Assembly: GCA_021825865.1 (NCBI GenBank)
Contig: JAKAFU010000014.1
Span: forward strand, 1-42,254
Origin: a bacterium
GTDB taxonomy: Bacteria > SZUA-79 > Acidulodesulfobacterales > Acidulodesulfobacteraceae
Reading direction: 5' to 3'
Length of the DNA: 42,254 nucleotides
Shown: positions 3,964 through 29,321 of the stretch, piece by piece
How positions within the stretch are numbered: the stretch's first letter is position 1
Layout: each line of letters starts with the position of its first letter
The notes under the pieces: generated by a model
What the model saw: the letters and a program-made list of their open reading frames with translations, nothing else
Told to the model about the DNA's origin: nothing
Databases searched by the model: none
Made by a program: the position numbers and the translations under genes

Positions 3964-4317
3964 TTATAATTTAAGCCTGCCGATAATATCGTCTAATCTT
4001 TCGGGTACGCCCATTTTAGTAACGGGCGGATGCTTTGAATTTCGTTTTTGAAATGCATGAAGAATTATCATGGTGTGATTAATTATGACATATACAATTC
4101 TATGATTTCTTTTAAATCTGTCGGCTAATTTAATTTTCCAGAATTTATCTCTCATATGTTTGATTTTTACCGTTCTGACTTCCGGAAACTCTTTAACGAA
4201 CATATCGATAGAATCGTAAATCTGTTTTTTTGTATTTTCATCCAGCGATTCGATATATTTTAATACAGGGCTTACGCCGTTTTCAGGAGAATAATATATT
4301 ACTTTTTCTACTTTCAT
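3964..4317 (-). CDS. RelE/HigB-type toxin (Gp49-like), no visible antitoxin
   Basis: This 117-residue protein matches the Gp49-like/HigB branch of the RelE/ParE superfamily, which are mRNA-cleaving ribosome-dependent toxins. The core pattern is visible: KYIESLDENTKKQIY near the N-terminus, KHMRDKFWKIKLADRFKRN in the middle strands, and the strand IILHAFQKRNSKHPP near residues 85-100. The usual C-terminal helix is present but altered (MGVPERLDD). The 214 bases downstream and 162 bases upstream hold no ORF long enough for a HigA or RelB antitoxin. It is therefore an orphan toxin, a domesticated RNase or a remnant. The ATG start follows family length. Confidence 0.85.
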   Translation of the reverse strand: MKVEKVIYYSPENGVSPVLKYIESLDENTKKQIYDSIDMFVKEFPEVRTVKIKHMRDKFWKIKLADRFKRNHRIVYVIINHTMIILHAFQKRNSKHPPVTKMGVPERLDDIIGRLKL

Positions 4318-4479: not shown

Positions 4480-5610
4480 TTATTTTGCGCGGAACGATTT
4501 ATGTGTTTTTACGTTATCTGTTCTTACGGCAGATTTTTTAAAAGCGCCGATAGTTATTTTGCCTTTTCCGTCTGTATATTTCATATGCAGATTATTCTTA
4601 AGAATTATTTCTCCGCGTTTTTTTTCCTTATCTCCGGTGATATTGCTTCTGCTATTTTTATTTCCTTCCTTATACCCGTCTTTATATTTATTGTGAAATT
4701 TTTTGCCGTTCTTAAACTCTTCGGGATTTTTATAATAAATCTTATTTTTTGTATTTACAGACGTTGAAGTTACAGATTTTGAACTTGCAGATGCTGAATC
4801 GGATGCTGATGCTGATTTTCTTTGTTCCGCCTGCTCTGCCGTATTTACTGCTTCAGTTTCTTTTTTAAATACAAGCTCGGCAACATTTTTTTTTATTATT
4901 TTAAATTCGCCTGAACGCAAATCTCCAATTGGAAGACCGCCTATTTTAATTCTTCTCAATAAAATAATTTCTAAATTAAGAAATTCAAGAATTTTTCTTA
5001 TTTCTCTATTTTTCCCATTTTTTAAATCAATCAATAAAATATATTTATTTAAATTTTTTTTAACAACTTTTACACTGTGGGGTTTTAATAAACCCGCATC
5101 TTTCAAAAATACCCCTTTTTTAATTTTACTGAATATTTCAGGTGTAATATCGCCCTTAACTTCAACTATATATGATTTTATAACATTAAATTTCGGATGT
5201 GTCACCTTATATGCAAAATCTCCGTCGTTAGTCATAAGCAGCAGACCTTCACTCATAAAATCCAATCTGCCGACAGGAAAAACAAACTTGGCTATTTCAG
5301 GTTTATCTATTAAATCCATAACCGTTCTAAAACCTTTTTCTGATTTTCTGGAACTAAGAAACGCTTTCGGTTTATTAATCATCAGATAAATAAAATCCTT
5401 ACCGGACGCTCCTATGCGTTTTTCATCAAGCAGCACTATATCTTCAACTGATACGTTTGTTGCCAGCCGGCTAATTTTTTTACCGTTTACATTGGTTCTG
5501 CCTTCTCTTATTATTTCATCGGCTGCGCGTCTGGAAACTCCGGTATGCATGGCTATAAATTTATTTAATCTTACGGCTTGCTTCATGTCGTCATCGTTAT
5601 AACTTTTCAA
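4480..5610 (-). CDS. rluB: RluB/RsuA-type 23S rRNA pseudouridine synthase
   Basis: The protein converts a specific uridine of 23S rRNA to pseudouridine. An S4 RNA-binding domain occupies about residues 10-70. The catalytic motif GRLDFMSEGLLLMTNDG follows near residue 118 and contains the nucleophilic Asp, and the later KNGKNREIRKILE motif is also typical. The start is TTG, with GAGGA about 9 bases upstream; an in-frame ATG lies 8 codons later. Beyond the core (about residue 245) runs a tail of about 130 residues rich in Ser, Lys and Asn with no recognised domain. In many bacteria rluB sits with scpA and scpB; here it is convergent with scpA and the toxin gene lies between them. Confidence 0.93.
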   Translation of the reverse strand: MKSYNDDDMKQAVRLNKFIAMHTGVSRRAADEIIREGRTNVNGKKISRLATNVSVEDIVLLDEKRIGASGKDFIYLMINKPKAFLSSRKSEKGFRTVMDLIDKPEIAKFVFPVGRLDFMSEGLLLMTNDGDFAYKVTHPKFNVIKSYIVEVKGDITPEIFSKIKKGVFLKDAGLLKPHSVKVVKKNLNKYILLIDLKNGKNREIRKILEFLNLEIILLRRIKIGGLPIGDLRSGEFKIIKKNVAELVFKKETEAVNTAEQAEQRKSASASDSASASSKSVTSTSVNTKNKIYYKNPEEFKNGKKFHNKYKDGYKEGNKNSRSNITGDKEKKRGEIILKNNLHMKYTDGKGKITIGAFKKSAVRTDNVKTHKSFRAK

Positions 5611-5663: not shown

Positions 5664-6440
5664 TTACAAGCTTCCTATTAACATGCTTTTATGTTTATTA
5701 TTATACACTAAAACTTTTACAATTTTAACATTTAAAATATTATTTTTAGCTTTTAGAGGACGGTAATAATATTCCAAAAAAATATTTCTGCCGATATGTC
5801 CGAAATTTCCTGTTCTTAAATTTAAAAATTGCTCAGCTTTTTTCTCGTCTACTTTAATGAAATTAAACTTTCCTGCATTAGTATTATCAACGGTTAAATT
5901 TTTAAACAGATAATAAATGTTGCCGTGTATCGACCTTATAAAATCAATGTTTCTATCCGTTTTCATACCATTTTGAATTTTTCGTCCTGAACCGTAATAT
6001 CTTAAATAAAAGCCGTGTTTTTTAAAATTATAGTTTCCTATATCTGCTTTAATATATTCCTTAAAATAATTGACGTGCGCAATATAATTTAATAATTTTT
6101 TAAATCTTATCTTATCTTTATAATATAATTTCTGCCATAAAAAGGCATTAAACCGGTCATGTTTATATTTTGAAGGATTAACAATCTTAATATAATCGGT
6201 AATAATTTTTTTAGTCAAAGGTTCATTTGAATATTTTACATATAAAGCATAAATGATAGGGTCTGAAGCATAAACAGCGCCTGAGTATCTTAGTTTACCG
6301 ACGTATGCCTTTTGTTTAACAGTTTGAAAATTAACGGCATCGGCCGGCTTAACGAAAATTAAACTAAAATTCGTAAAAAATGCAAAAAGCAATAGCCATA
6401 AAATTAAAGAAATTGCAGAAACCGAAAATTTATTTTTCAT
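5664..6440 (-). CDS. Exported protein of unknown function, last gene of the T4SS locus
   Basis: I do not recognise the family. The start at 6440 is chosen over an upstream ATG at 6530 because AGGTG lies 6-7 bases before it and it opens directly with a signal peptide: a Lys-containing start, a hydrophobic stretch LILWLLLFAFFTNFSLIF and a possible cleavage site at ADA. The mature part of about 225 residues is Lys/Tyr/Asn-rich with no obvious further membrane helix, so it is probably periplasmic or outer-membrane associated. It lies on the same strand as the T4SS genes but 461 bases beyond the VirB9-like gene, so membership of the operon is inference. It could be an accessory or exported substrate. 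Confidence 0.7.
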   Translation of the reverse strand: MKNKFSVSAISLILWLLLFAFFTNFSLIFVKPADAVNFQTVKQKAYVGKLRYSGAVYASDPIIYALYVKYSNEPLTKKIITDYIKIVNPSKYKHDRFNAFLWQKLYYKDKIRFKKLLNYIAHVNYFKEYIKADIGNYNFKKHGFYLRYYGSGRKIQNGMKTDRNIDFIRSIHGNIYYLFKNLTVDNTNAGKFNFIKVDEKKAEQFLNLRTGNFGHIGRNIFLEYYYRPLKAKNNILNVKIVKVLVYNNKHKSMLIGSL

Positions 6441-6752
6441 AATCAACACCTGTTTAGTTTTATTTAAAATTTTTTTATTAGAAATCCTATTGTTAGAAAT
6501 TTTATTGTTAATTGTTAAATTAGATTGCAATATAAAATATACAAAATAAAATTATATTTCTTAAACATATTATATGATTTTAATATAATATAATTTTACG
6601 ATAACATCAATAAAAAATTTTAGTTTGCTGTGATATATAATAAATCAACAGTGGGTACATAGCATATATTCTTTATAAATAATTATTTTTACCAACTATT
6701 TGCATTCGCTGAATTTATTAATTTAATTTACGGCAGTTATGAATAAAGATAT

Positions 6753-6975
6753 AAATAAAATATATAAAAGCATAATTACATATACTATATATCGTCTATA
6801 TTTAATTCGGCTTAATCAATTTTTATCAAATAAAATATGAACCGAAAATTTAAATCTGTTAAAAGAAGCAAATAAAATATATGAAAGTCTTACTTATTAT
6901 ATTATATACCACATATATTCAGCTTAACCAATTTTTTATTAAGCAAAAAATGAACCGAAAATTTTAATCTGTTAA
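6753..6975. repeat. Imperfect direct repeat, two copies of about 106-110 bp
   Basis: Copy A (6753-6862) and copy B (6870-6975) both begin with AAATAAAATATAT and end with AATCTGTTAA, and share most bases between, including ATGAACCGAAAATTT. They are separated by 7 bases. Copy B includes the last 74 bases of the VirB9-like gene; copy A lies in the downstream gap and its reading frame is interrupted by a stop. This looks like a local duplication of the gene's 3' end. Confidence 0.75.
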
Positions 6976-7951
6976 GCAGTTTAAATTTATATTTTTTATT
7001 TACTTCAAATACTGCGACATTTCTAATAATTTTATACGGCATATATCGTTTATTATGCGGCTGCTGGTTCATTATCATAATCTCCCTGATGCCTGTCGGT
7101 TTATATCCGCTAAAAAAATTGCCTCCTGTTTCTAAAAACAAATAAATATTTCTGATGAAAAATTTTCTGTCTGTTGTGTTTGTCAGCCTATATTGCAGAT
7201 AATAAATTTTTCCTATGCGGCTTAAGGAGTTTATTGTTAATACAATACCTTTTTTTCTTATTTTTTTATTAATTTTAATTTTATTGACGGATAAAACAAT
7301 ATTTAAAATTTCTTTTTTCTGTCTTTTTATATTTGAGCGCTCTTTATCAAGCAGATTTAATTTTCCGATATATTTCTTTTTTATAATATCTTCGTCTTTT
7401 TTAATCTTAGCTTTTATATAATTCGCTGCAAAAACATTATTGACCCGCTGCGTTAGATTTAAATCATAAGTCACATGCTTTGGTTTAGTAATTGTTAAAA
7501 GAACATTGATTAGACCGTATTTAGTCAATATTTCAAGATTAGTATTAATTTTATTATTATAAGTCATCGGTTTAATAAAGATTTGCTTTCCTACAATCTG
7601 TTCAGAAAAATCTGATGCCCTGCCAATAGCAACATTTAGCGGGATACATGGGAGCGTTATAATGCTTACGTAGCCTAATGCGGTATTCAGCTTATAGATT
7701 ATATCGGATTTTATGGCAAGCCTGTGCGTATACAGTCTATTTTTAAAACTGTATTTTATTAAACTTGAATAAGGCTGAGCGTTCGCAGCTTTACAATACA
7801 TATGAAAGTAAAAAATAGATGAAACTGATATAATAAATAAAAAAAAATAAAAATTTAAAAATCGCCGCAGCGAAGCGAAAGTATCGCGGTTATTTTTACT
7901 TCTTTTAATTTTTTTAATTCTTATAATTCTTATGATTTTTGTATTTCTCAA
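6902..7951 (-). CDS. VirB9/TraK-like exported T4SS core protein (divergent)
   Basis: This 349-residue protein has a basic N-terminus, a membrane or signal segment at about residues 31-52, and a stretch at about 85-160 resembling the VirB9 N-terminal domain: YKLNTALGYVSIITLPCIPL, then AIGRASDFS, then IFIKPM and NTNLEI. VirB9 forms the outer-membrane core of T4SS with VirB7 and VirB10. The C-terminal half is Lys-rich, with a strand-rich stretch that may be Ig-like. The start is TTG with GGGGAT 8 bases upstream, inside the end of the preceding gene one base away, so translation is probably coupled. Its place after virD4, rather than between virB8 and virB10, is unusual. The assignment is by pattern only. 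Confidence 0.62.
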   Translation of the reverse strand: MRNTKIIRIIRIKKIKRSKNNRDTFASLRRFLNFYFFLFIISVSSIFYFHMYCKAANAQPYSSLIKYSFKNRLYTHRLAIKSDIIYKLNTALGYVSIITLPCIPLNVAIGRASDFSEQIVGKQIFIKPMTYNNKINTNLEILTKYGLINVLLTITKPKHVTYDLNLTQRVNNVFAANYIKAKIKKDEDIIKKKYIGKLNLLDKERSNIKRQKKEILNIVLSVNKIKINKKIRKKGIVLTINSLSRIGKIYYLQYRLTNTTDRKFFIRNIYLFLETGGNFFSGYKPTGIREIMIMNQQPHNKRYMPYKIIRNVAVFEVNKKYKFKLLNRLKFSVHFLLNKKLVKLNICGI

Positions 7952-7952
7952 T

Positions 7953-8276
7953 TTAGTTATCCCCTATATTATTGTTCTTTAAATTTTCTAATTTATCGTG
8001 CATTTTAAGTTTTGCGCCAGTAACCTTTATTTCAAAAATTACTACGTATAAACCGTAAATGCCGCTGAAAAATAAATATAAATTAATTAAATACAAAACT
8101 GATATTGCCGTATAGTGCTCAAATGCGTAATTTGCAAATATGTAGAAACAATTTATATAATATTTAAATTTATCGTTTGAAAAATAAAATAAAGCAAATA
8201 GACCTGAAGCGCAAAGAAAAGCAATTTCAAGTATATCAAGCTCATCATCATTGTTATATTTTCTGAAATTATTCAT
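7953..8276 (-). CDS. Small membrane protein of the T4SS locus
   Basis: This 107-residue protein has about three hydrophobic segments (near residues 15-31, 38-52 and 58-84) and a polar, charged C-terminus. I do not recognise the family. Its stop codon almost touches the TTG start of the VirB9-like gene, and it follows virD4 by 93 bases, so it is very likely co-transcribed with the secretion genes. It could be an accessory inner-membrane subunit. Confidence 0.65.
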   Translation of the reverse strand: MNNFRKYNNDDELDILEIAFLCASGLFALFYFSNDKFKYYINCFYIFANYAFEHYTAISVLYLINLYLFFSGIYGLYVVIFEIKVTGAKLKMHDKLENLKNNNIGDN

Positions 8277-8369
8277 ATAAAAAAGATATTGATAAATATG
8301 TTTAAAATTTTTTGCGTCAGCCGTATCAATTATTCGTATTAATTATTCATATCAAAATAACCCTTATAT

Positions 8370-10124
8370 TTAGAAAAATAATAAGGATGAAGATATGCCT
8401 ATGCCCGGTCCTTTAATAGCTTTATCGGAATAAATTCTGTATATTGCCTGATTGAGTTTAAGATTTGCAAAATCATCGGTATCAAATGCGGGCATTTTTT
8501 CCATTGTTTTGCTTGTACCCTGCGATATCGTATTATCATCAGACAATAAACCGCCTATATAGGAGTTAAATCTTGCGCTGTCATCCTGTTCGGTTATATT
8601 TTCGGTAATTTTCGCTTTAAATTCTTTATCGCATATTTTTGACGCTTTTTCTCTTGAATAATCATCGCTCAAAGAAAGCCATACGGAAGACCTGATATTT
8701 CCTATAAGCGAATTAAGCTTTTCTTCTGAGCCAAGTTTTAATTTTAATGAACTATAACTTTGCGTTAGCATTATATTAATGGCTTTAGACTGCCTGCATC
8801 TTGCGAAAAATTCGCTGTCCGATTCAATATCGCCGGACGTTACATAGTTTTGATATTCGTCACATAGAAAAAGCACCGGTCTTGCCGTATTAATCTTATT
8901 ATTTATTACGGCATTATATACCCTGTTAAGCACAGTTCTGAAATAATCAAGCTTGAGCATAATTCCTATAGCGCGTCCGGTCAAACCGTATTGAGATTCC
9001 GGCATCCTCAGAATAATTATTTTCCCTTTATTTATCACTTCTTGAAAACCGGGAAAGTTTAAATCTTTTTCAGGCGCGCAGAATGTTTTCTTGTATAATG
9101 GTTTTATAAAATCTGAACAGACTCTTAATGATTCGCTTTTTATTATTCCTTTTGTTCTTTCATCAAGATTTTTATAATCGCTGCCTGAAAAATAATCTAT
9201 ATACATAATAAGATTGCCTTTGTCGGATTCATTTATTTTTTTTAAATCAATTAATTTTTTTGAATAATTAATAACATTAACCAGTTTTTCTTCGTCGGAT
9301 ATAATTTCATAAACGGCATCTAGCGTTACATATTTGAACGTTATTCTTAAAAGTCCTATTGAACTGGCTAACAAATTAATAGACTTATCTTTCCAGAAAC
9401 TGTCTTGTCTCCCGTCGTTAGAATTTAAATTTTCTAAAACTGAATATAATCTTTCCGCAATTATGGAAACATCTAAATTTGGATAATGTATCGGATTGTA
9501 AAAATATCCCGAACCCGGTTCTATAATAATTATATCGGAAGCTCTTCCATAGTTTTTTATTATATCTGCTGCGGTTTTCCAGAAATCGCCTTTGACATCC
9601 AGAATTAACGCGCCTATTTTTTTATCTTCTTCGTTTTTGCTGCAATTCAGCAGCTGATCTAAAAACGGATATGCGCATGAACTGGTTTTTCCGGTACCTG
9701 TTGAACCTATTATTATAAGTCCTGTATATAATCCGTCTTCGTTTAGCGTCAGCCAGTCGTATTTTTCTTTTCTGCTTCCGTCTTTATTATGTATCTCGCC
9801 GATTACTAATTTTAATTCATTGTCTTTAACAGGCCATAAATACGTATTAGTATTCTGCGCAATTTTTTTTATTTTTTTCTTTTTTGCCGGTTTTAAATAA
9901 ATATATTTGTTGTAGATTATATTTGAAAGCGAATAAGCCGAAAAAAACCACATAGTCAAAGGCAAAAATATTAAGACTAATTTTACGCCGTTAAAATAAT
10001 AAAAATAATAATTTAAATCTTTATTTGAAAAAAAACCTGAAAATATGAACAGATAGCAGATTTCTATAATAAATATAAAAAATGAAATAATAAGTTTGAA
10101 TGCCAAAATTTTATTTTTATTCAT
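8370..10124 (-). CDS. virD4: VirD4/TraG-type coupling ATPase
   Basis: Coupling proteins recruit DNA or protein substrates to the T4SS channel and energise transfer at the inner membrane. Two N-terminal membrane segments (about residues 9-32 and 47-64) precede the cytosolic ATPase. Walker A is GSTGTGKTSS at about 140-149. LILDVKGDFW follows near 175, then the Walker B region PVLFLCDEYQNY near 420 with the TraG-typical ARCRQSKAINIMLTQS. The length of 584 residues suits the family. A coupling protein often implies conjugation, but no relaxase gene is seen here, so the substrate may be protein or DNA encoded elsewhere. Confidence 0.92.
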   Translation of the reverse strand: MNKNKILAFKLIISFFIFIIEICYLFIFSGFFSNKDLNYYFYYFNGVKLVLIFLPLTMWFFSAYSLSNIIYNKYIYLKPAKKKKIKKIAQNTNTYLWPVKDNELKLVIGEIHNKDGSRKEKYDWLTLNEDGLYTGLIIIGSTGTGKTSSCAYPFLDQLLNCSKNEEDKKIGALILDVKGDFWKTAADIIKNYGRASDIIIIEPGSGYFYNPIHYPNLDVSIIAERLYSVLENLNSNDGRQDSFWKDKSINLLASSIGLLRITFKYVTLDAVYEIISDEEKLVNVINYSKKLIDLKKINESDKGNLIMYIDYFSGSDYKNLDERTKGIIKSESLRVCSDFIKPLYKKTFCAPEKDLNFPGFQEVINKGKIIILRMPESQYGLTGRAIGIMLKLDYFRTVLNRVYNAVINNKINTARPVLFLCDEYQNYVTSGDIESDSEFFARCRQSKAINIMLTQSYSSLKLKLGSEEKLNSLIGNIRSSVWLSLSDDYSREKASKICDKEFKAKITENITEQDDSARFNSYIGGLLSDDNTISQGTSKTMEKMPAFDTDDFANLKLNQAIYRIYSDKAIKGPGIGISSSLLFF

Positions 10125-10272
10125 TTGCTTTTGCGCTAAGCAATCAAGGATAAATGCCGATTATTTTCTTTTATTTAAAGATAGAATTAAAATGAATACT
10201 CAAAAAATTATTTTTATCGCAAGTAAAAATGCCGTTTCTTTTCTTTTATTTAGAAATAAAACACTGCCGATA

Positions 10273-11184
10273 TCAATTAATGGAGAAATTATACAAATGC
10301 TTATTAATTATGGCTTTAACCGTTCTTATATCCGAATAGTATGTCCACATAGACGATTCTATAGCCCTTATATCGTTTTCAGAAACGTATAATCTGTCTT
10401 CAAGCATGGCCTTTGCCTTTATAATTTTCACCGTATCGCGCCACCTCCGGTCGGAAACTATTACCTGCCTGTTTTTTAATTCTTCCCTGATGCCGAAAAT
10501 TAAATTATAAATATTTTCCCCTATATTTATTTTCCGTAAAGCTGTGATTATTTTCTTTAGTTCATCTAATGTTAAATTTATATTGCCGGATGAATATTCT
10601 TCGCTGAGTTTCAGCAGTTTCTTAAAATTATCCTCCCTTGCTATAGGCAGCACTTCTTTTCTTAATAAAAATCTGTCATATAAAGGCAGTAAATTAGAAG
10701 AAACAGTTCTGTCGGGCTTTTCATTAGAAGTTGCGAATAAACTGATAAGAGGTATATTTACAGGTTCAGGATTATATAATATTCTTTCGTTCATTATTGA
10801 CAATAGCGAATTAAGCGTTGATGTTTTGCCCTTAAAAAATTCGTCGATTAGCACAATCTCGCATTTATCTATACCATTGCCTTTATTTAAGGGGTTATCG
10901 GACAACAAATCATTTATTTCAGTGTGCGGGGTCATTTGATAATCAAACAATTTCATTCCGTTTATATGTTTTGTTAAAGCTTTTAATATAGCAGTTTTGG
11001 CAAGCCCGGGTTCGCCAATGAGAATCATATGCTGTTTGGCGATAATTGAAATTAAAATTGATTCTATAAGTTCATATCTTTCAAAAAAATATGCATCAAG
11101 ATTTCCTATTATAGAAATTATTTTTTCTCTTGCGCCGTCAATATCATCATAACTGTTAATATCTGTGTTTAAAAATCCGTTCAT
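10273..11184 (-). CDS. RavA/MoxR-family AAA+ ATPase inside the T4SS operon
   Basis: MoxR AAA+ proteins act as chaperone-like remodelling ATPases, often with a VWA-domain partner. Walker A is GEPGLAKT at residues 57-64, Walker B is EIVLIDEFFKGK near 109-120, and sensor 1 is in LFATSNEKPD near 149-158. The segment LYDRFLLRKEV resembles the RavA subfamily, as does the overall length of 303. It lies between virB10 (40 bases upstream) and virD4 (148 bases downstream) on the same strand. No VWA gene such as viaA is in the window. MoxR proteins are not standard T4SS parts. It may assist assembly or stand in for the missing VirB11 ATPase; that role is inference. Confidence 0.9.
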   Translation of the reverse strand: MNGFLNTDINSYDDIDGAREKIISIIGNLDAYFFERYELIESILISIIAKQHMILIGEPGLAKTAILKALTKHINGMKLFDYQMTPHTEINDLLSDNPLNKGNGIDKCEIVLIDEFFKGKTSTLNSLLSIMNERILYNPEPVNIPLISLFATSNEKPDRTVSSNLLPLYDRFLLRKEVLPIAREDNFKKLLKLSEEYSSGNINLTLDELKKIITALRKINIGENIYNLIFGIREELKNRQVIVSDRRWRDTVKIIKAKAMLEDRLYVSENDIRAIESSMWTYYSDIRTVKAIINKHLYNFSIN

Positions 11185-11224
11185 AGCAGTTTTATTTCAA
11201 AAATAATAAATTAACATTAATTAA

Positions 11225-12649
11225 TTAATTGCGCACCGCTCTCAAAAATATAACTTTTATCGGTGTTCCTTCAGGTAAAGTAATAGTCGTCTGCTGCGCC
11301 AATGACGCCATGGAATCCAAACCGTTTTGAGCCTGATTTAATTCATTCTGTGCAACATTTTGTCTTATCTGGTTTTGAAAAGTATAAGGATTTGAAGAAT
11401 TTACGGCGGAACCTCCTCCTGTAAACATTGCGGCTGCGCCCACTACCCCCTGAGCTAACGATGTCAGCGCATTCGCTTCATAATGATGATGAACATTCCC
11501 CTTTACGCCTCCGGAACCGTTCGGCATCATAGCTATGGCGTCTATATTCAGCGATGAACCGTCTGTTTTAATTATTCTGTTGAAATGTATATTAAGTCTG
11601 TTTATAGAATGTTTTATACTGACCATCCCAAAAAATTTATCGCCTTTTTTTAAAAACTGTTTATTTTTGTAATAATATGCGTTTGACAAAATTGCTATTA
11701 CCGGAACCTCGGTATTATATGAAAATATCTTATATTTAATATATGCGTTGACGACTGTTCCTATCGGTATCGCTGCTGCTGCCGGACTGTTTCGGATATT
11801 ATTATAATTAGTGTTTCCTTCGTCTTCTTTTTTATAAAAGTTAAAATTGCCGTTCATAATATTATTTTTAAACTGTTTATTTTTTTTCAATCCTCTTTCG
11901 CTGTTTAAAATTAATTCTTTATAACTTTGTTTAATAAAAACTACAATTTTTTTATTTATAGGCAATAAATTTTTTTTAACTGCTCTATTTTTATTTTGCC
12001 GATATTCATTATTCTTCAATTTTTTTAGCATTTCCATTTCTTTATAAAATTTTTTGCTGAATTTTCTGTTGTGTTCAGCCGGTTTATTTATTTTATTGCC
12101 GGAACCGTAATTAAATATGCGGGGGGAAAATCTTTTTTTATAATTTATAGTTTTATTTGTATAACCGTTTGCTTTTCCTGTTTCATTAGTAGGTTTCAGT
12201 TCAGACTTGTTAAAATATAAAAATTTGAACATAATAAAAAGCGCTATAATTATTCCTGTTATAATTATTATTCCGTTAAACGATTTTAAAAATGTAAATT
12301 TGCCGGTTTTATTTTTTAATTCCGGTGCAGAATTATATATATTATTTTCTGCTGTCGCATCTCCGCCGGCTGCCGAAGCTTCCCGTATTTCATTGAACGA
12401 TATATGGTGATTATTATCCGTTGATGCATCTTCAGCTGCCGAACTGCGGGCTGCAGATGTTTTGCGTGCATTATCATCATCGCTGTTATTATCATTATCG
12501 TCATCATCGTCATAAACATCGTAATCAACGTCATTACCGGCGTCATTACAGTCATCATCGCCGCATTTCTTATTTTTTGCATTTAGCTGTTCCTCATAAT
12601 TTAGCTGTTCCTCGGAGATAATGTGAGGATTATTTAATTCATCATCCAT
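11225..12649 (-). CDS. virB10: VirB10/TrbI-type T4SS protein
   Basis: VirB10 spans both membranes and links the inner-membrane ATPases to the outer-membrane pore. The N-terminal 130 residues are cytosolic, with a striking acidic Asp/Asn tract near residues 35-62. One membrane helix follows (GIIIITGIIIALFIMFKFLY, about 133-153 by pattern), then a Lys-rich linker. The C-terminal domain shows the typical order: TVVNAYIKYKIFSYNTEVPV, GDKFFGMVSI, an Ala/Gly-rich stretch around AQGVVGAAAMF (probably the pore-forming helical region), and the final strand TLPEGTPIKVIF. Length 474 is normal. It follows virB8 by 7 bases. Confidence 0.9.
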   Translation of the reverse strand: MDDELNNPHIISEEQLNYEEQLNAKNKKCGDDDCNDAGNDVDYDVYDDDDDNDNNSDDDNARKTSAARSSAAEDASTDNNHHISFNEIREASAAGGDATAENNIYNSAPELKNKTGKFTFLKSFNGIIIITGIIIALFIMFKFLYFNKSELKPTNETGKANGYTNKTINYKKRFSPRIFNYGSGNKINKPAEHNRKFSKKFYKEMEMLKKLKNNEYRQNKNRAVKKNLLPINKKIVVFIKQSYKELILNSERGLKKNKQFKNNIMNGNFNFYKKEDEGNTNYNNIRNSPAAAAIPIGTVVNAYIKYKIFSYNTEVPVIAILSNAYYYKNKQFLKKGDKFFGMVSIKHSINRLNIHFNRIIKTDGSSLNIDAIAMMPNGSGGVKGNVHHHYEANALTSLAQGVVGAAAMFTGGGSAVNSSNPYTFQNQIRQNVAQNELNQAQNGLDSMASLAQQTTITLPEGTPIKVIFLRAVRN

Positions 12650-12656
12650 TTTATTG

Positions 12657-13301
12657 CTACGCTCCGCCTAATTTTAATGTATTGAAATATACTACTTTTA
12701 AACCGAAAGGATATTGAATGCTTCTTTGTACTCTTTTTAATATCAGCTTATCTTCATAAGCTGCGCTGCTTTCAATATTTGAATTTGAATTAGCTCTTAC
12801 TGTTCTTATTATATAAAGCTTTAATTCATCGTGATTCACCGTCTGCCTTATAAGTTTAATTTTCTTATATTTAATCACGGAAGAAATATTAGCCTTTTCC
12901 ATTTTTTGTATAAACTTTTCTCTTATAATCATTTTTAGCGTATTTTCTCCATAAGATTTGCTCATTTTATTTAATGCTCTTGAAAGCTGCGTTTTAATAG
13001 TTATAGAATTAAATCCTGTAAATTCTCTTATAAAAGTTTTTGAAAAATAGACTATTTCGCCCATGCCTACACTGTTATTAAAAGGCAGATCTCTTAATAT
13101 CTTTGCGCTGCCTGCTTCAGAAACCCTTATAACAACCGGAACTCTGTTGATTTTATAAGTGAAATAAGCAGTAAAAAGAGCAACAGAGGTAATGATAGTC
13201 ATTAATACTATTACAATTTTTAAAGTAGTATTCTGGGCATTAAGGTCGCCCCATATTTCATAAAAGAATCTATTTTCGTTTTTTTTATTATCAAGATACA
13301 A
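12657..13301 (-). CDS. virB8: VirB8/TraE-type inner-membrane T4SS protein
   Basis: This 214-residue protein has a short cytosolic N-terminus containing the WGDLNAQN segment, one membrane helix at about residues 27-49 (IVIVLMTIITSVALFTAYFTY) and a periplasmic domain of about 160 residues. That layout and size match VirB8/TraE, which nucleate assembly of the T4SS. The start is TTG with AGGT 7 bases upstream, and the gene overlaps the end of virB6 by 11 bases, supporting translational coupling. Sequence similarity within this family is weak, so position between virB6 and virB10 carries much of the assignment. Confidence 0.82.
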   Translation of the reverse strand: MYLDNKKNENRFFYEIWGDLNAQNTTLKIVIVLMTIITSVALFTAYFTYKINRVPVVIRVSEAGSAKILRDLPFNNSVGMGEIVYFSKTFIREFTGFNSITIKTQLSRALNKMSKSYGENTLKMIIREKFIQKMEKANISSVIKYKKIKLIRQTVNHDELKLYIIRTVRANSNSNIESSAAYEDKLILKRVQRSIQYPFGLKVVYFNTLKLGGA

Positions 13302-14421
13302 TTGCTTTACCTGCCGTTATTAAAGTTTGTTTTATACCGGAATGATATCTGTCGCCTAATCCGTCAAAAATTTTTCCTATTAAAAAAGGCACTGAAACCG
13401 AAATTGATATCATTACCGTAAAAATAACAATATCTTCCGCAAAAGTGAACAGCCCTAATATCTGGCCTAATCCCGTTCCTGTAGATTGCATATTTGCGGA
13501 CATTATTTTTCCCAGCATAGTAAAAAAAATTAACTGCTCAAGACCAGTCGCTACACCCCAGAATGAGATTTCAACAAAGAGTTTCAGCCATTTTGAAAAA
13601 ACTCCTTTGGTATAAGGGATTATTTCAAATCCTATAATTATCGGAAATATTGAAAACAGCAGTCCTAGTATAACAAGCTGTATTAATGCCATAAAAAGCT
13701 GAATTCCCACATATAATATATTAAAAATGAACCAAAATATTCCCATTAAAACCGCGCCTGTCAGTGCGTGCAGAGCACCGGCAAACCACGATACCGGATT
13801 AAGATTCCAGCCTTTTTGCACGGAAGCCGTTCCGTTTGACGATATTGTAGGCAGCGATACCGAATGGAGACTTTTAACAATCGATGAATTTATCTGCGAT
13901 ACATTTTGACCTATACTGTATATATTCAATTTAATGATATAAAGCTGAATTTTATCGGCTAACGATAAAATATCCTGGGCAAAATTTGATAAACCGGCTG
14001 ATTTCCATGATAAAAAAGCGGCTGCTATTAATGCGGTTTTAAGAAACAGACCGTAGTAATTTGCCGATTGTCCGGTTAATTCTAATTTATAGGATTCCCA
14101 TAAAGAAAATACGATACCGGAAGCAAATAAAAAATAGAACAGATATGTCGTCAGCTGCACCAGACTCGAGTTTTTATTCAGCGCATCAGGAATAGAATCT
14201 ATTGACAGGATGGTTAAATCTTCCCCGTTGTTTAATTTCGAAATAGACAGCGATGATGAATTTAATTTAGAGCTATTCAAATTAGAACCGGAATTAGACA
14301 CTGAACCTGTTCCGGAACTGCCGCCGGCTGTCAAAGCCATTGCGATTCCGGTATTCAAAAATTCTGCCGTGCAAAAACATACGGCGGCAATCATGAAAAT
14401 TGAGAAATATTTTTTTATCAT
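13291..14421 (-). CDS. virB6: VirB6/TrbL-type polytopic T4SS protein
   Basis: The 376-residue protein begins with a signal-like segment and a Ser/Gly/Asn-rich stretch (about residues 32-65). At least five hydrophobic helices follow, for example at 90-108, 127-140, 217-260 and 325-345. This is the layout of TrbL/VirB6, the inner-membrane channel component. The Ser-rich region before the first conserved helix is typical of TrbL. It overlaps virB8 by 11 bases and starts 37 bases after the VirB5-like gene, so it sits firmly inside the operon. Confidence 0.85.
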   Translation of the reverse strand: MIKKYFSIFMIAAVCFCTAEFLNTGIAMALTAGGSSGTGSVSNSGSNLNSSKLNSSSLSISKLNNGEDLTILSIDSIPDALNKNSSLVQLTTYLFYFLFASGIVFSLWESYKLELTGQSANYYGLFLKTALIAAAFLSWKSAGLSNFAQDILSLADKIQLYIIKLNIYSIGQNVSQINSSIVKSLHSVSLPTISSNGTASVQKGWNLNPVSWFAGALHALTGAVLMGIFWFIFNILYVGIQLFMALIQLVILGLLFSIFPIIIGFEIIPYTKGVFSKWLKLFVEISFWGVATGLEQLIFFTMLGKIMSANMQSTGTGLGQILGLFTFAEDIVIFTVMISISVSVPFLIGKIFDGLGDRYHSGIKQTLITAGKAIVS

Positions 14422-14458
14422 AATATTTTCTAATATGTATTGTTTAGATGTTTAATGT

Positions 14459-15610
14459 TTATAATGTAGTGTCATTGTAAAAATTTAAATTTGGTTCATT
14501 GCTATTTTGCTCCATAAGTGAAGCGCCTATGTGCTCTTTTTTTATTTCTGAGGCAGATTTAGACAATTCAAGCTGCTTAAGCTGACTTTCAATATATCCC
14601 ATGTTCTTCAAATTAGCCGCATTTTCCTCTGCTATTAACGTCAGCACCGAACTCTGATAAGTATAGTAATTGCTGCTGTTTCCTAATGCGCCGCCAGCAA
14701 TTTCGTTTTCAAATCCATCCCCTTCCAATTCTGCTTTGTGCGCTCTTGCGGATGATATACCGGCATTATAAATATCAGATGCAGCGACATTACTTTCAAA
14801 CCCGTTTACATAATCCATACAATTTTGAGCCGCCGCTCCATCGTTAGAACCGCCGGAAGCGCTTCCGCTGTCCGTTAAATCCGGCTGGCAATTATAATTT
14901 ATAGAATTAACAGGTACCGCAGAAGTTATGCCGTCAGAGTTTAATATCAATGAATTTGCAAGACTTTGCGCGCTTCCCGATAAATCTTCTTTATTATGAG
15001 ATTCTCCGGAAACTATCTGCTGTATGCTGCCGTAAGAAGTATTCTGCAAAGAATTAAACGCGTTATTTTCTGAATTGATATTATCTTCTATTGAACCTGC
15101 CGGCTCGGTATTAACGGAAACGTCATTTGAGGTTAATCCCTGAGGTATCTGATTGAATGCGCTTTTAATCCGGCTGTTTAACGTATTTAAATTATTAATA
15201 GTATTTTGAACGGAGTCGGCTATATGCGTTAATTTATCATAATTTATAATAATATTCTGCTCAGCTTCCTGCATTTCAGATTCTGCAGCCGTAAGCGATT
15301 CAAATGATTGAAGAGCCTGCCCTATTCCAATTCCGGGAGTGGCAACCGGCATACCTGCAGATTGAGCGGAAGATGCTGCATTTCCGACTGTACTCATTAC
15401 CTCTGAGGCAGCGGAAGCAACTGAATTAATCTGACTTGTGATTAAACTCATGTCAGGCAGCGGCAAACCCAATGCATATGCTGTCTGAACGCAGATATAC
15501 CCCGACAAAACAATGGCGGAAACCGATAAGACAATTTTTTTAGAATTTAATTTAAAATTTTTAAAATTTCCGTTGAAAATTTTCTTATGATTTATAAACT
15601 CTGCAAACAT
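14459..15610 (-). CDS. VirB5/TrbJ-like periplasmic helical protein
   Basis: This 383-residue protein has a signal segment at about residues 27-47 (KKIVLSVSAIVLSGYICVQT, then AYA). The mature part is Ala/Ser/Asn-rich, with long predicted helices, a Ser/Gly-rich middle and a C-terminal helical stretch around YIESQLKQLELSKSASEIKK. Such helical exported proteins between virB4 and virB6 are VirB5/TrbJ, a minor pilus component. GGAGGT lies 8 bases before the ATG. Direct sequence similarity to VirB5 is weak, so the name rests on gene order, secretion signal and helical character. Confidence 0.7.
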   Translation of the reverse strand: MFAEFINHKKIFNGNFKNFKLNSKKIVLSVSAIVLSGYICVQTAYALGLPLPDMSLITSQINSVASAASEVMSTVGNAASSAQSAGMPVATPGIGIGQALQSFESLTAAESEMQEAEQNIIINYDKLTHIADSVQNTINNLNTLNSRIKSAFNQIPQGLTSNDVSVNTEPAGSIEDNINSENNAFNSLQNTSYGSIQQIVSGESHNKEDLSGSAQSLANSLILNSDGITSAVPVNSINYNCQPDLTDSGSASGGSNDGAAAQNCMDYVNGFESNVAASDIYNAGISSARAHKAELEGDGFENEIAGGALGNSSNYYTYQSSVLTLIAEENAANLKNMGYIESQLKQLELSKSASEIKKEHIGASLMEQNSNEPNLNFYNDTTL

Positions 15611-15714
15611 GAATATATACCTCCATATTTAAATTAGTTCAGTTTAGTATGCATTCTATAATAATCCGCATAATCCTTATCAGCCGGTATATGATATATT
15701 TAATAACAAAGTGT

Positions 15715-15731
15715 TCTGTTTATAAAACAGA
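15715..15731. other. Small hairpin between virB4 and the VirB5-like gene
   Basis: TCTGTTT and AAACAGA form a perfect 7-bp stem around ATA. It sits in the 170-base gap between the VirB5-like start and the virB4 stop. No T-run follows on either strand, so it is not a clear terminator. It might stabilise or mark processing of the transcript. Confidence 0.35.
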
Positions 15732-15780
15732 CAAATATATAATCGCATGATTTATTTATTTTTCGTTTTCGGTTTACGGT

Positions 15781-18348
15781 TTACTTTAAACCGTACGGAC
15801 CATTTGGATATTCGGATGCTAAAACTTCAAGTCTTTCTCTTAACGTTTTACCTGGGTATTGAGCCGCGATTTTATTTTCCAGTTCTTCATCTTCCGATGA
15901 TTTACAGTATAGCCAGTATTCAAAAGGGTCAGGCTTATTCATAATAACCGCTGCATCTTTTCCAAACTTTAGAAAATATTCGGCATAATGCCCTTTAACC
16001 ACTTTTAGATTTTTTACTGTTTCAATTTCTTTTTTGCCTAATCCGCAAATCCTTAAATCATCGGGGGAAACATCTGCATCAAGCTGACAGAAGATTTTAA
16101 CGGTAGAATTTTCAATTATACTTTTTCCTGCATTTCCGGTCTTTAAAAGGTCTGACGGTTCCTGAGTTATGCTCCATACCAACGACCCCCATTTTGCCGA
16201 TGTTTTATATAAATGCATAATCAGCTCCGCTATTTTAGGGTCGTTCATAAATTCCCAGCATTCGTCGTAAAAGAAAAATACCCTGGCATTTTTGTTGTAC
16301 ATTTTTTTAAAGGATAAATTTTTTATTACGGCAAAGACTATTTTTTGTAAATCTTCATGTCCTTTTAATTTTTGCAGGTCAAAAATAACTATTTTATTAT
16401 CCATATTTAAACCGCCTTTTCTATTTAGCAAAATACTATACGGAGAGCTTATATCCGTCCATTGAAAAAGATTTTTACCCATTTCCATGGCCCTTCTTTT
16501 GTCTTCGGCGTCTCTTGCCTCGTTATAATTAAATAAAACATTATTAATATCGGAAATAATCGGCATGTCATCTTCATCTTTTATGTAATCGTACGATGCC
16601 TGTATAGCCCTTGCAATAATCGTTTTATCATTCGGCGACAAACTTCTGTCCGGTTCTGCCATAATACCTATTATTCCTATTAAAAAAACCATAATATCGG
16701 GGTTAAATATTTCTTCCCCGCCAATATGTTTAATAACATATTTTTTTGGAGGAAAAGGATTCAAAGAGTATGTGCCGTCCATATCAATTTCAAAATAGTC
16801 GCCGTCAAAGAGCCTGCAGAATTTTCTGTATGTGCCTCCTATGTCAACCCCGATAATATGATAATTATCGCCTGATAAAAAAAAGTTAGATAAAAATCCG
16901 TTCAGCATAAACCCCTTGCCGCTTCTGGTTTTTCCAAAGATAACGCCATGTTTTGAAGGCAATCTGTTATTATATAAATCTAAATTGACCGGCTCCGACC
17001 TGTTATTTTTTAACGGTATGGAGCAATTTTCAGTTCCTCCGAATCCTTTATGCAGCGGAAAGAATGAAGCTGCAGCAGGAGAAAGCAGAGTTTTAAATCT
17101 TCTGTTGAAAAAAGACTGCCCCGGAAAAAATGATAAAAATAAATTATGATGTTCCATATTGTCTATTATTCCTTCCATAAAATTAAAATCTTTAAACGAC
17201 TGCAGGATTTTCAAAGACATATAGTCCAATTCCCGTAAACTTTTAGATTTTATTCTGGCGCACAAAGATATATTGACGGCCTTTTTTTGTAATTTTGATA
17301 TTTCGGCTAAAAACTCATCCATCTGGGATGTTATATTTGTCCCTTTATGGTCAACATAGCCGCCGTTGACGGCATCTGTTAAACTTGCTTTAATATTTCT
17401 TTCAGACTGAATTTTATTAACGATTTTTTCCTGCTCAGGTATATTAAAAGAGACCTGAATGTCAAACGGAAAAAATTTTTTTACATCATTTGATTCCAAA
17501 TTAAGTATTTTTGCTATGCCGAATGAATCAGTCTGCGAAGGAAGTTTATGCATATTAATAAATTTAAAGTAATAGCCGTCAATATAAAAATATTCTTTAT
17601 TTATTTCTGCAGGTGAAAATATTAGAGAACTTCTGAATGTTGCTTCATTCGGTATATTCTTATAAAACGGAGCGTCAATATGCAGAGCTCTTTGCGGATT
17701 AAGTTCGTTATAAAAATAATCAACTAATTCCTGATTAGACATTCTTTTTATTTTTATATTTAATCTTGCAGAAAAAAAACTTAAATTATTTTCAATATTT
17801 TCCATTTTTTTTAACATATACTCAAACTCTTTCTCTGCGCGGGCTCTTGAGTTTTTATTAAGCGCATCTTTTGGTTTAGCCGCAATCAGATTGGCTGCAA
17901 ATTGCGATAATCTTGAAAATAAATTTATATTATTGACAATGCCGGGTTTAAAACCGGATATTGTGCAAAAAAGAAATATATCTATTTTTTTAATTAATTC
18001 TGTATTAAGTGATTTAATCTTTTTTTCTTTTATAAATAAATATTTTTTAGGTGGGTGTGAATTATTTATATAATTTGATATAAAATTTTCGTCAGAATCT
18101 GATATTTTATATATCCATTGAAGCGAGATATCTTCGTTTAATAAATTTAATAAAATATCGTTAATATATGCAGTATCGTTAATTATTTCATCATTTGCCA
18201 GAAAATAATCGAATCCCTGTACGGCGAACCCGACGGTCAACGAACCGTCTATGCCGACAATAGTATCTTTAAATATGCTTAATAGATTGATATAATTATT
18301 TAAAGAATCATACTGATTTTGTTTTTTTAAAATATTATTTATTAACAT
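15781..18348 (-). CDS. virB4: VirB4/TraC-family T4SS ATPase
   Basis: VirB4 is the most conserved T4SS ATPase and drives pilus assembly and substrate transport at the inner membrane. The 855-residue length is typical. An N-terminal domain of about 450 residues precedes Walker A at 472-479 (GKTRSGKG). VDIGGTYRKFCRLF follows, then SLNPFPP, and the Walker B region VFFFYDECWEF is near residue 695. Next comes SITQEPSDLL, the Gln/Glu motif usual in VirB4 proteins. It follows the VirB3-like gene by 79 bases. The P-loop has Gly at the position where Ser/Thr is usual, a small deviation. Confidence 0.93.
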   Translation of the reverse strand: MLINNILKKQNQYDSLNNYINLLSIFKDTIVGIDGSLTVGFAVQGFDYFLANDEIINDTAYINDILLNLLNEDISLQWIYKISDSDENFISNYINNSHPPKKYLFIKEKKIKSLNTELIKKIDIFLFCTISGFKPGIVNNINLFSRLSQFAANLIAAKPKDALNKNSRARAEKEFEYMLKKMENIENNLSFFSARLNIKIKRMSNQELVDYFYNELNPQRALHIDAPFYKNIPNEATFRSSLIFSPAEINKEYFYIDGYYFKFINMHKLPSQTDSFGIAKILNLESNDVKKFFPFDIQVSFNIPEQEKIVNKIQSERNIKASLTDAVNGGYVDHKGTNITSQMDEFLAEISKLQKKAVNISLCARIKSKSLRELDYMSLKILQSFKDFNFMEGIIDNMEHHNLFLSFFPGQSFFNRRFKTLLSPAAASFFPLHKGFGGTENCSIPLKNNRSEPVNLDLYNNRLPSKHGVIFGKTRSGKGFMLNGFLSNFFLSGDNYHIIGVDIGGTYRKFCRLFDGDYFEIDMDGTYSLNPFPPKKYVIKHIGGEEIFNPDIMVFLIGIIGIMAEPDRSLSPNDKTIIARAIQASYDYIKDEDDMPIISDINNVLFNYNEARDAEDKRRAMEMGKNLFQWTDISSPYSILLNRKGGLNMDNKIVIFDLQKLKGHEDLQKIVFAVIKNLSFKKMYNKNARVFFFYDECWEFMNDPKIAELIMHLYKTSAKWGSLVWSITQEPSDLLKTGNAGKSIIENSTVKIFCQLDADVSPDDLRICGLGKKEIETVKNLKVVKGHYAEYFLKFGKDAAVIMNKPDPFEYWLYCKSSEDEELENKIAAQYPGKTLRERLEVLASEYPNGPYGLK

Positions 18349-18427
18349 ATTTTATTATTCTATTTATTGATTTAATATTAAATGTTATCTGTTAATTAAG
18401 TTATTTTTTTGTTTATTTTTTTAAACA

Positions 18428-18778
18428 CTAATATTTTTTCTCATATTTTTTTAATTTTTTGGATGGCAAGCCGTAATTTTCAATAATACTTTTTGTATCG
18501 GCAATATCTCGCTGCGGTTCTAAAACAAATAATTTTTTTGTTATAAAGAAATAATTTATTAATGTCGTTGTATATAAATCAGGTTTACCTTTTTTATATT
18601 TTTTAAGAAAAATAAACAGTAAAAGATCTAAAATAATTGCTGCAAGAATTATTTTCCTAAGCAGTAATATAATGCCCATGGTCAGAAAAATATATAATCC
18701 CCAGTCGTATAGCTCTAAACCTAATTTTGTTACTTTTTCATGAATACCTCTGTGTATTTTAAAAACTGTAAAACTCAT
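18428..18778 (-). CDS. VirB3/TraL-like inner-membrane protein
   Basis: This 116-residue protein has a short N-terminus with FKIHRGIHEKV, resembling the start of VirB3/TrbD/TraL proteins. Two hydrophobic helices follow (about residues 28-40 and 44-60), then a Lys-rich tail. VirB3 proteins work with VirB4 and are often just upstream of it, as here. The small size and position between the pilin-like gene and virB4 carry most of the evidence. Confidence 0.72.
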   Translation of the reverse strand: MSFTVFKIHRGIHEKVTKLGLELYDWGLYIFLTMGIILLLRKIILAAIILDLLLFIFLKKYKKGKPDLYTTTLINYFFITKKLFVLEPQRDIADTKSIIENYGLPSKKLKKYEKKY

Positions 18779-19014
18779 TTTTATTTATATATTTTTTAAT
18801 GAAATTTAATAAAATCTATAAAATTTAAATGAAAAACAAAATTTATCCGCATAGTTTTATTATATATATTATTTTTGCCTCCGGTTGCCGTAAATCCTCT
18901 TGCTTTAACAATGGAGAGAGTATGCCAAATTTTTAAAGAACCTTTCTGTACCGAAAGCCGGATTGTTAATTTAATTATATATATTGTATATGCCTCATGA
19001 GCATTGATTGCCGG

Positions 19015-19033
19015 GCTAATGTTAAACATTAGC
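19015..19033. promoter_or_regulatory. Perfect 19-bp palindrome between pilin and VirB3-like genes
   Basis: GCTAATGTT and AACATTAGC are exact inverted copies around a single A. It lies 42 bases after the pilin-like stop codon and 237 bases before the VirB3-like start. It could be an RNA hairpin that reduces read-through after the pilin gene, or a dimeric operator site. No U-run is evident on the minus strand. The remainder of the 296-base gap holds no convincing gene. Confidence 0.45.
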
Positions 19034-19074
19034 TTGTTAATTTATATGTGTTATTTGATGTCCGGTCAGTTATC

Positions 19075-19638
19075 TTAAGGCTGTCCGACCGTACTTGCGC
19101 CGTTTCCCGCGCCTATACTTATTCCGTTCGCAGCTCCTCCGGCATTTTGAACAATACCCAGGACTGCGCTAGTAATTGTAGGCGCCAGCATAACGCCGGT
19201 TCCTGCAGCCGCCGTTATAAAAGCTTTTCTTGCCGCATCCGGCTTATGCTGTTTTATATCATAAAATCCTTTAACTAATCCCAATGTCAAAGTTGCAGGG
19301 GCTAATCTGTAGCATATCCATGTAGTCGCCTCGTTTAATATCCCTGAGGCGCCGATTCCAAGCGAACCTTGATTTAAATTTATATAAGAATAAGCCGGAG
19401 AAGTAATTGATAAAATAGAAAATGATAATAAAAACGTTAAAAAAAATATTTTCTTGAACTTATAATAATGGGTAAAAGAATTATCCGTTTTATTATTTTT
19501 AAATAATCTTTTTCTTAAAACCGTATTACCTGTTATTAAGCCGTTTAATTTATTAACAAATTGTTCTTCAAAAAATCCCGATATAATTCCCGATTCCAAA
19601 CTGATTGACAATCGATTATACAAACTGATTATTTTCAT
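19075..19638 (-). CDS. VirB2/TrbC-like pilin precursor
   Basis: This 187-residue protein has an unusually long polar N-terminus (about 60 residues), a hydrophobic signal segment at about 65-83 (FFLTFLLSFSILSITSPAYS, a possible cleavage site), then a mature part with two hydrophobic helices: about residues 111-125 (TWICYRLAPATLTLGLV) and 141-163. A short Gly/Asn-rich end follows. This two-helix pattern after a signal peptide is that of VirB2/TrbC pilins. AGGAGG lies 8 bases before the ATG. It is the first gene of the T4SS locus. Confidence 0.75.
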   Translation of the reverse strand: MKIISLYNRLSISLESGIISGFFEEQFVNKLNGLITGNTVLRKRLFKNNKTDNSFTHYYKFKKIFFLTFLLSFSILSITSPAYSYINLNQGSLGIGASGILNEATTWICYRLAPATLTLGLVKGFYDIKQHKPDAARKAFITAAAGTGVMLAPTITSAVLGIVQNAGGAANGISIGAGNGASTVGQP

Positions 19639-19788: not shown

Positions 19789-19956
19789 TAACGCTGTATC
19801 TTTTTAATATTATTGATAAATTATAATTATAAATATAAATTTATCTTTTTTATTTTATTTTTTTATTCCAAATTGTCATAAAATTGTAATATTAAAATGA
19901 TATTATTAAATCCTTCCAAAAAATTTATTAAATAAAATATGACGATAGGAGAAGCC

Positions 19957-20178
19957 ATGAAAAATCCAAAAAAAAGAAGACGAAAAAAAGGAGAGCGTAA
20001 GAGCTATCAGCAATTTATTGATGAAATATACGAGAAATTGCAGGAAAAAAAAGAAATTGAAGAATTATACAAACGTGTTATAATATTTAAATCGAGCGAT
20101 GTGCTTGAAGAATTAAGAATCAGAAAAAAAAATACGGAGGCATTAGAAAAATATAATGGAAAATCAGACAGGCGATAA
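19957..20178 (+). CDS. Small basic hypothetical protein divergent from the T4SS
   Basis: The family is not recognised. ATG at 19957 is preferred to the ATG at 19939 because GGAG lies 5 bases before it. The 73-residue product begins with a strongly basic tract (KNPKKRRRKKGERKS) and continues as a charged, probably helical segment with many Glu and Lys. The basic start could bind nucleic acid, but this is inference. It overlaps the next gene by 23 bases and is transcribed away from the T4SS operon, so it might be a regulator or accessory gene of that locus. Confidence 0.6.
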   Translation: MKNPKKRRRKKGERKSYQQFIDEIYEKLQEKKEIEELYKRVIIFKSSDVLEELRIRKKNTEALEKYNGKSDRR

Positions 20179-20572
20179 CAATAACTACGTTGAAAATGAC
20201 GGTCAACACGGTTCGAATAACAGAAAAATAGATACAATCTTTAATGAAATAAAATCATACATTAACGATACGAAAGATTACGGTCTGAATGAAAACAAAA
20301 GAGATGAAGCATCTAGTATTATTTCTTTTACGGGAATGATTTTAGATGAATTGTCTAACTCAATAAAAAAGGCAAATTTATCTAATTTTAATCTTGAAAA
20401 AATTTCTGGTGAAGATTTAGATATAAAATTATCAAATTTATTAAGTCAGCTTAAACCTTATTATTTTGAAAAAGAAACCGGTGTGATGTTAGACGGACTG
20501 GCAGATTATTGCAATGATGTATTTATGGAACTCATGGCCGGACATTCATGCGCCGTGCCTGAAAAACATTAA
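20156..20572 (+). CDS. Hypothetical helical acidic protein
   Basis: This 138-residue soluble protein has an Asn/Gly-rich N-terminus and a helical body (IDTIFNEIKSYIND, then ISFTGMILDELSNSIKK), ending with MELMAGHSCAVPEKH. No signal peptide, membrane segment or known motif is visible. Its start lies 23 bases inside the previous gene, with CGGAGG 12 bases upstream, suggesting translational coupling. The family is not recognised. The pairing of a basic and an acidic small protein next to a secretion locus could indicate partners, but this is only suggestion. Confidence 0.6.
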   Translation: MENQTGDNNNYVENDGQHGSNNRKIDTIFNEIKSYINDTKDYGLNENKRDEASSIISFTGMILDELSNSIKKANLSNFNLEKISGEDLDIKLSNLLSQLKPYYFEKETGVMLDGLADYCNDVFMELMAGHSCAVPEKH

Positions 20573-29225: not shown

Positions 29226-29321
29226 TGGCGGAAGCGTATGGGAATCGAACCCACCCCGCCCTTATTGGGGGCGGCGACTGATTTGAAGTCAACGAGGGGC
29301 ACCAGCCCTCTATCCGCTTCC
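29226..29321 (-). tRNA. selC: tRNA-Sec (anticodon TCA), CCA encoded
   Basis: The RNA begins GGAAGCGG and ends CGCTTCC-G-CCA. The anticodon loop CTTCAAA carries TCA. It has an extended 6-bp D stem (GAGGGC with GCCCCTC), a long variable arm rich in G and C, and the GGTTCGATTCC T arm. The total of 96 bases, including encoded CCA, is typical of selenocysteine tRNA. The discriminator is G. No selA, selB or selD gene is in the window, so selenoprotein synthesis must involve genes elsewhere. Confidence 0.93.

Follow-up and report, generated by a model that had tools for sequence, protein, structure and literature searches.

A type IV secretion locus of the Acidulodesulfobacterales, probably fixed in the chromosome, with a MoxR/RavA-type ATPase in the place of VirB11

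Background

The role of VirB11 in type IV secretion systems (T4SSs), as a switch between pilus building and export, is incompletely understood, and many T4SSs have no VirB11. The bacteria-killing T4SS of X. citri, which is chromosomal and relaxase-free and includes VirD4, has VirB11, unlike the locus described here. In the MPF_T (P-type) plasmid R388, virB11 lies directly behind virB10, the place taken here by a gene for a MoxR/RavA-type AAA+ ATPase. VirB11 is lacking in ComB of H. pylori (PMC12857230).

The host is a relative of Candidatus Acididesulfobacter (Acidulodesulfobacterales, SZUA-79 lineage), from an acid-mine lineage of uncultured bacteria; a search of open-licence papers found no report of a secretion system in it, and the founding paper on the order is silent on secretion. 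Its genome assembly (1.9 Mb, 74 contigs, 90.5% completeness) encodes only one VirB4. The window, i.e. the whole 42,254-nucleotide stretch of contig JAKAFU010000014.1 that was analysed, contains the T4SS locus at 5664-19638 (- strand).

Comparison with described systems

The locus shares with the MPF_T systems (R388 Trw, pKM101) the order virB2-B3-B4-B5-B6-B8-B10, the VirB9 fold and the VirB10/TrbI domain, and in its sister genera a VirB1-like transglycosylase (SLT) and a lipoprotein extend this likeness. It differs from them in having no relaxase and no VirB11 (the window genome holds no match of VirB11 grade), in the moxR gene behind virB10 and virB9 behind virD4, and in a VirB4 that is nearer to TraC by HMM. 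With the MPF_F system (F plasmid Tra) it has in common the absence of VirB11 and a VirB4 that scores best on the TraC-F model, but it lacks the TraU/TraN/TraW/TraF/TraH/TraG set, has a gene in the VirB5 position, and is set by the VirB4 tree outside both F TraC and the F-type-like systems of the same lineage. The F-type-like conjugation loci that the host lineage also carries (group 4) look different, and classification as an F-type conjugation locus was considered and dropped. The likeness to the bacteria-killing system of X. citri includes a VirB9 fold match.

Outside the lineage, the closest VirB4s that the search returned belong to Myxococcus plasmid pYRE and to genome G061 (profile 2e-97 and 5e-107, respectively), which have a similar core order; the stretches examined there contain no detectable MoxR. 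Of about 356 genomes sampled beyond the family, none matched the VirB8 profile, and the VirB9 profile gave two weak matches; with its own VirB4 clade, the system is indeed divergent, as had been proposed from the sequence alone.

Gene order and subunits

All genes of the order virB2-B3-B4-B5-B6-B8-B10-moxR-virD4-small membrane protein-virB9-DUF4852 were recovered on the - strand from open reading frames and family HMMs, in agreement with the sequence-only reading. VirB4, VirB10 and VirD4 exceed family cut-offs, VirB9 is recognized by fold, and VirB6 and VirB8, like VirB3, by weak HMM matches and position, which together describe a VirB/VirD4-class core with its coupling ATPase. VirB2, VirB3, VirB5, VirB6 and VirB8 are putative assignments, drawn from weak matches, position or both. 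By VirB4 phylogeny the locus belongs to group 1, which forms one clade (support 100) with group 2 (about 48% identical to group 1) and group 3 (about 33%); relatives of this VirB4 include those of Candidatus Acididesulfobacter diazotrophicus AP1 (L017, same genus, 87% identity) and SZUA-79.

The first gene of the operon encodes a putative exported VirB2-like pilin (19075-19638, 187 aa) that is conserved in groups 1 and 2, has no Pfam match and was assigned by position and exported-protein features. Next come a VirB3/TraL-like protein (18428-18778, 116 aa; PF07178 TraL, E=0.004, below cut-off), conserved ahead of VirB4, and the VirB4/TraC ATPase itself (15781-18348, 855 aa), which scores 108 bits on P-loop_TraG (6.5e-31) and 185 bits on TraC-F-type (1.8e-54). 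Between virB4 and virB6 lies a gene for an exported protein in the VirB5 position (14459-15610, 383 aa), conserved in groups 1-3, likewise without a family match and assigned by position and exported-protein features. The VirB6/TrbL-like membrane protein (13291-14421, 376 aa) was identified by position and a sub-threshold match (PF04610, E=0.05), and its profile matches a Myxococcus plasmid gene beside the virB4 of that plasmid. VirB8 (12657-13301, 214 aa; PF04335, E=0.0037, below cut-off) is conserved in groups 1-3 and has no match among PDB sequences or in IMG/VR. VirB10/TrbI (11225-12649, 474 aa) is above the cut-off of PF03743 (4.7e-16, 60 bits).

Behind moxR, the VirD4-type coupling ATPase (8370-10124, 584 aa; TraG-D_C and TrwB_AAD_bind above cut-off) possesses Walker motifs, has no match among PDB sequences and, at 63-95% identity across six genera, is among the most conserved subunits. 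Its 3' end (window 8370-8460, -) contains one extra base relative to three relatives, altering the last residues, which is either real or an assembly error; a possible assembly error may also account for the virD4 of Candidatus Acididesulfobacter diazotrophicus (G002) being split in two frames (L102:10691-12471). Among plasmid proteins, the best relative of VirD4, at 33% identity, is an isolated coupling-like ATPase adjoining an integrase on an Agarilytica plasmid (L156:18972-20921) that has no annotated T4SS. A small protein (7953-8276, 107 aa), predicted from its sequence to span the membrane with two helices, is always encoded between virD4 and virB9 in group 1.

The gene behind virD4 (6902-7951, 349 aa) had been called a displaced VirB9-like gene, and its AlphaFold model (mean pLDDT 77) confirms the product as VirB9: the leading Foldseek matches are TrwF/VirB9 of R388 (E 3e-8), VirB9 of X. 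citri and F TraK/outer-membrane core, and the N-terminal domain fits at 1.9 A with 26% identity. No open reading frame with a lipobox, as would be expected of VirB7, was found on the sense strand of the locus in a search of the window. The reported absence of VirB1 and VirB7 stands for this locus and fails for the sister genera, which, like group 2, carry a lipoprotein gene and an SLT transglycosylase gene (PF01464, up to 91 bits) behind virB9. The VirB7-like and VirB1-like genes are therefore best read as lost locally, in the window's genus only; SLT genes are also present elsewhere in the window genome. In several relatives (L048:1421-3183, L044:16924-18329, L051:825-2582), an insertion spot between the SLT gene and the DUF4852 gene, or behind the SLT gene, is occupied by DNA methyltransferase and restriction-like genes.

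The last gene (5664-6530) encodes an exported DUF4852 protein (PF16144 in 13/13 orthologues, best 4.7e-9), a probable member of the locus that follows virB9, or virB9 with the lipoprotein and SLT genes, in most genera. Its structure model is unusable (pLDDT 41), and the domain was not found in a search of open-licence papers. Upstream of virB2, two small divergent open reading frames, u1 and u2 (window 19939-20572, +), occupy the same place in several genera and are possible regulators.

A MoxR/RavA-type ATPase in the place of VirB11

The gene in the VirB11 position (10273-11184) had been labelled AAA+, which is correct as far as it goes; the label passed over both its identity as a MoxR/RavA ATPase (bpMoxR 1.3e-26, 93 bits; AAA_lid_8 1.4e-15) and its one-to-one tie to this T4SS clade. 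RavA is its best match in the PDB (1.1e-49), with which it shares the AAA+ core and lid domain, but it is shorter (303 versus about 498 aa) and no VWA/ViaA partner gene was found in the operon by open reading frames and Pfam. The Walker A, Walker B, sensor 1 and arginine residues are invariant in groups 1-3, as in an intact ATPase. The gene lies directly behind virB10 in groups 1 and 2, and behind virB6 and an SLT gene in group 3.

Unlike other MoxR/RavA proteins, this one occurs only in T4SS loci in the genomes examined. By MoxR profile search, in which several partial matches within one frame count as one, the number of MoxR genes equals that of VirB9 genes in 28 of the 30 family genomes, and both exceptions are at contig breaks (in G012 the start of a group-3 locus is close to a contig end, in G024 the locus is spread over contigs). 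MoxR is absent from the genomes that lack the T4SS (G014, G027, G029), and four others (G000, G003, G009, G010), searched at E up to 1e-3, contain no other convincing MoxR, only weak matches in larger AAA proteins. Thus, MoxR accompanies only this T4SS clade, one per copy, throughout the 30 family genomes, and this exclusive partnership is the unusual point of the locus. Of the MoxR matches on plasmids, four were inspected (Listeria, Brevibacillus, Streptomyces, Pseudanabaena); the stretches viewed show no annotated T4SS genes, and a VWA gene adjoins three of the four. No link of MoxR/RavA to T4SS was found in the literature, although open-licence papers are a weak basis for such a negative.

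The absence of VirB11 proposed earlier was confirmed genome-wide: matches to the VirB11 model in the window genome reach at most 58.5 bits and cover the ATPase core of PilB/GspE-like frames of 400-620 aa, versus 162-202 bits for real VirB11s of relatives. Three relatives (G001, G013, G029) encode VirB11 on the same contig as a relaxase.

Conservation and chromosomal fixation

Group-1 VirB4 is encoded by 26 of the 30 family genomes, including 20/20 of those with completeness >=90%. The order virB2-B3-B4-B5-B6-B8-B10-moxR-virD4-small membrane protein-virB9 is invariant in all loci uncut by contig ends; with over 15 such independent loci, this constancy greatly exceeds chance. The flanks, too, recur across genera (the fructose-bisphosphate aldolase gene on one side, DUF4852-mqn-ThiG-RluB-ScpA on the other). 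In the window these are represented by a class II fructose-bisphosphate aldolase (21039-21962, -; PF01116, 2.4e-101), shared in genera g1 and g5, and an RluB-like pseudouridine synthase recognized by Pfam (4480-5610, -), shared in g1 and some genomes of g4, g5 and g6. A Gp49/DUF891 toxin-like gene (window 3964-4317, -) has dN/dS of 0.03-0.06 and a place conserved in the genus. No tRNA borders the locus, as previously noted: those of the window are at 29.2 and 31.9 kb, the former (29226-29321, -) being a predicted selenocysteine tRNA.

The rpoB and VirB4 trees have 9 of 14 splits in common (mean 0.19, maximum 2 with shuffled labels); the conflicting rpoB splits have support of at most 80, and some conflicting VirB4 splits are well supported. 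Every T4SS gene is under purifying selection, with dN/dS of 0.05-0.27, like the flanking genes (approximate values from pairwise Nei-Gojobori comparisons within genus g1). A degenerate ICE was rejected, the genes being constrained and conserved.

Searches with three relaxase families (PF03432, PF08751 and PF03389; MOBP, MOBF and MOBQ-type) gave no match in the window genome, upholding the earlier report of a missing relaxase, and none in ten genomes with the locus, of which four are 97-100% complete and at least three have uncut loci. A self-transmissible conjugative element would be expected to have one. Presence in all well-assembled genomes of the family, constancy of site and order, tree congruence with rpoB, purifying selection and the ten relaxase-free genomes strongly support the earlier suggestion of a chromosomally fixed system.

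Some elements of sister groups 2 and 3, which share this MoxR, also encode a MOBF relaxase, a coupling protein and ParAB. In G003 and G021 (group 2) and in G004 (group 3), some 20 kb separate the relaxase gene from the T4SS and ParA/ParB-like genes are present; G003 and G004 also have a recognized coupling protein, and integrase-like genes occur near group 3 loci. The loss of mobility therefore cannot be dated. Group-2 loci (L058-L060, L108) are followed by what read as type IV pilus-like genes (secretin-like, pilin and GspE/PilB-like).

Proposed function

The locus probably encodes a non-self-transmissible VirB/VirD4-class T4SS that is fixed in the chromosome and vertically inherited in the Acidulodesulfobacterales, with MoxR in the place of VirB11. 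MoxR/RavA-type proteins form hexamers. In the assembled machine, VirB9 and VirB10 would form the outer core, joined in sister genera by the VirB7-like lipoprotein; VirB6, VirB8, VirB3 and the VirB4 ATPase would form the inner machine; and the very conserved VirD4 would load the substrate for active export. MoxR may act in the cytoplasm as a remodeller with its client on the T4SS, which would serve to move the machine on from assembly to export or to remodel one of its components. Retention of VirD4 without a relaxase favours a protein substrate over DNA release: protein secretion is plausible, delivery to other cells having about an even chance of being correct, and DNA release being about half as probable.

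A system for DNA release or uptake, like the gonococcal GGI or H. pylori ComB, would agree with a fixed chromosomal T4SS that has no obvious effectors and, as in ComB (PMC12857230), no VirB11. It is nevertheless unlikely, since ComB has no VirD4, here among the most conserved subunits, and the GGI encodes a relaxase, of which none was found in the window genome with the three families searched.

Less probable still is a helper T4SS, a conjugation machine without a relaxase in cis that mobile elements use in trans. Relaxases are present in many family genomes, and groups 2 and 3 include elements that pair one with a coupling protein; those elements, however, have their own T4SS, the group-1 genes are constrained (within genus g1), and ten genomes, at least three with uncut loci, keep the locus with no relaxase of the three families. 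Moreover, group-1 VirD4 does not match PF02534 and scores 24 bits on TrwB_AAD_bind, versus 234 for the coupling protein near the relaxase of G003. That MoxR is a bystander chaperone, unrelated to the T4SS and in the operon by accident, would suit the altered gene order in group 3 and the known assistance of MoxR proteins to unrelated complexes, but purifying selection, invariant catalytic residues and a count of one MoxR per T4SS copy over three VirB4 groups, with no further copy found in the genomes, make this the least likely reading.

The stronger proposal, that the MoxR/RavA ring functionally replaces VirB11 as a dedicated third motor in a T4SS clade kept by one lineage as a core non-conjugative export machine, is tentative and somewhat less likely than its opposite; F-type, ComB and Gram-positive systems also do without VirB11, and MoxR is thus not necessarily a replacement. 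In either case, an AAA+ ring unrelated to VirB11, in its place and one-to-one with the machine, is a natural test of the job of that motor. The fixed, non-mobile T4SS favoured here gives an uncultured, environmentally important lineage a conserved secretion system, and points to an ancient, immobile export machine whose engine has been rebuilt.
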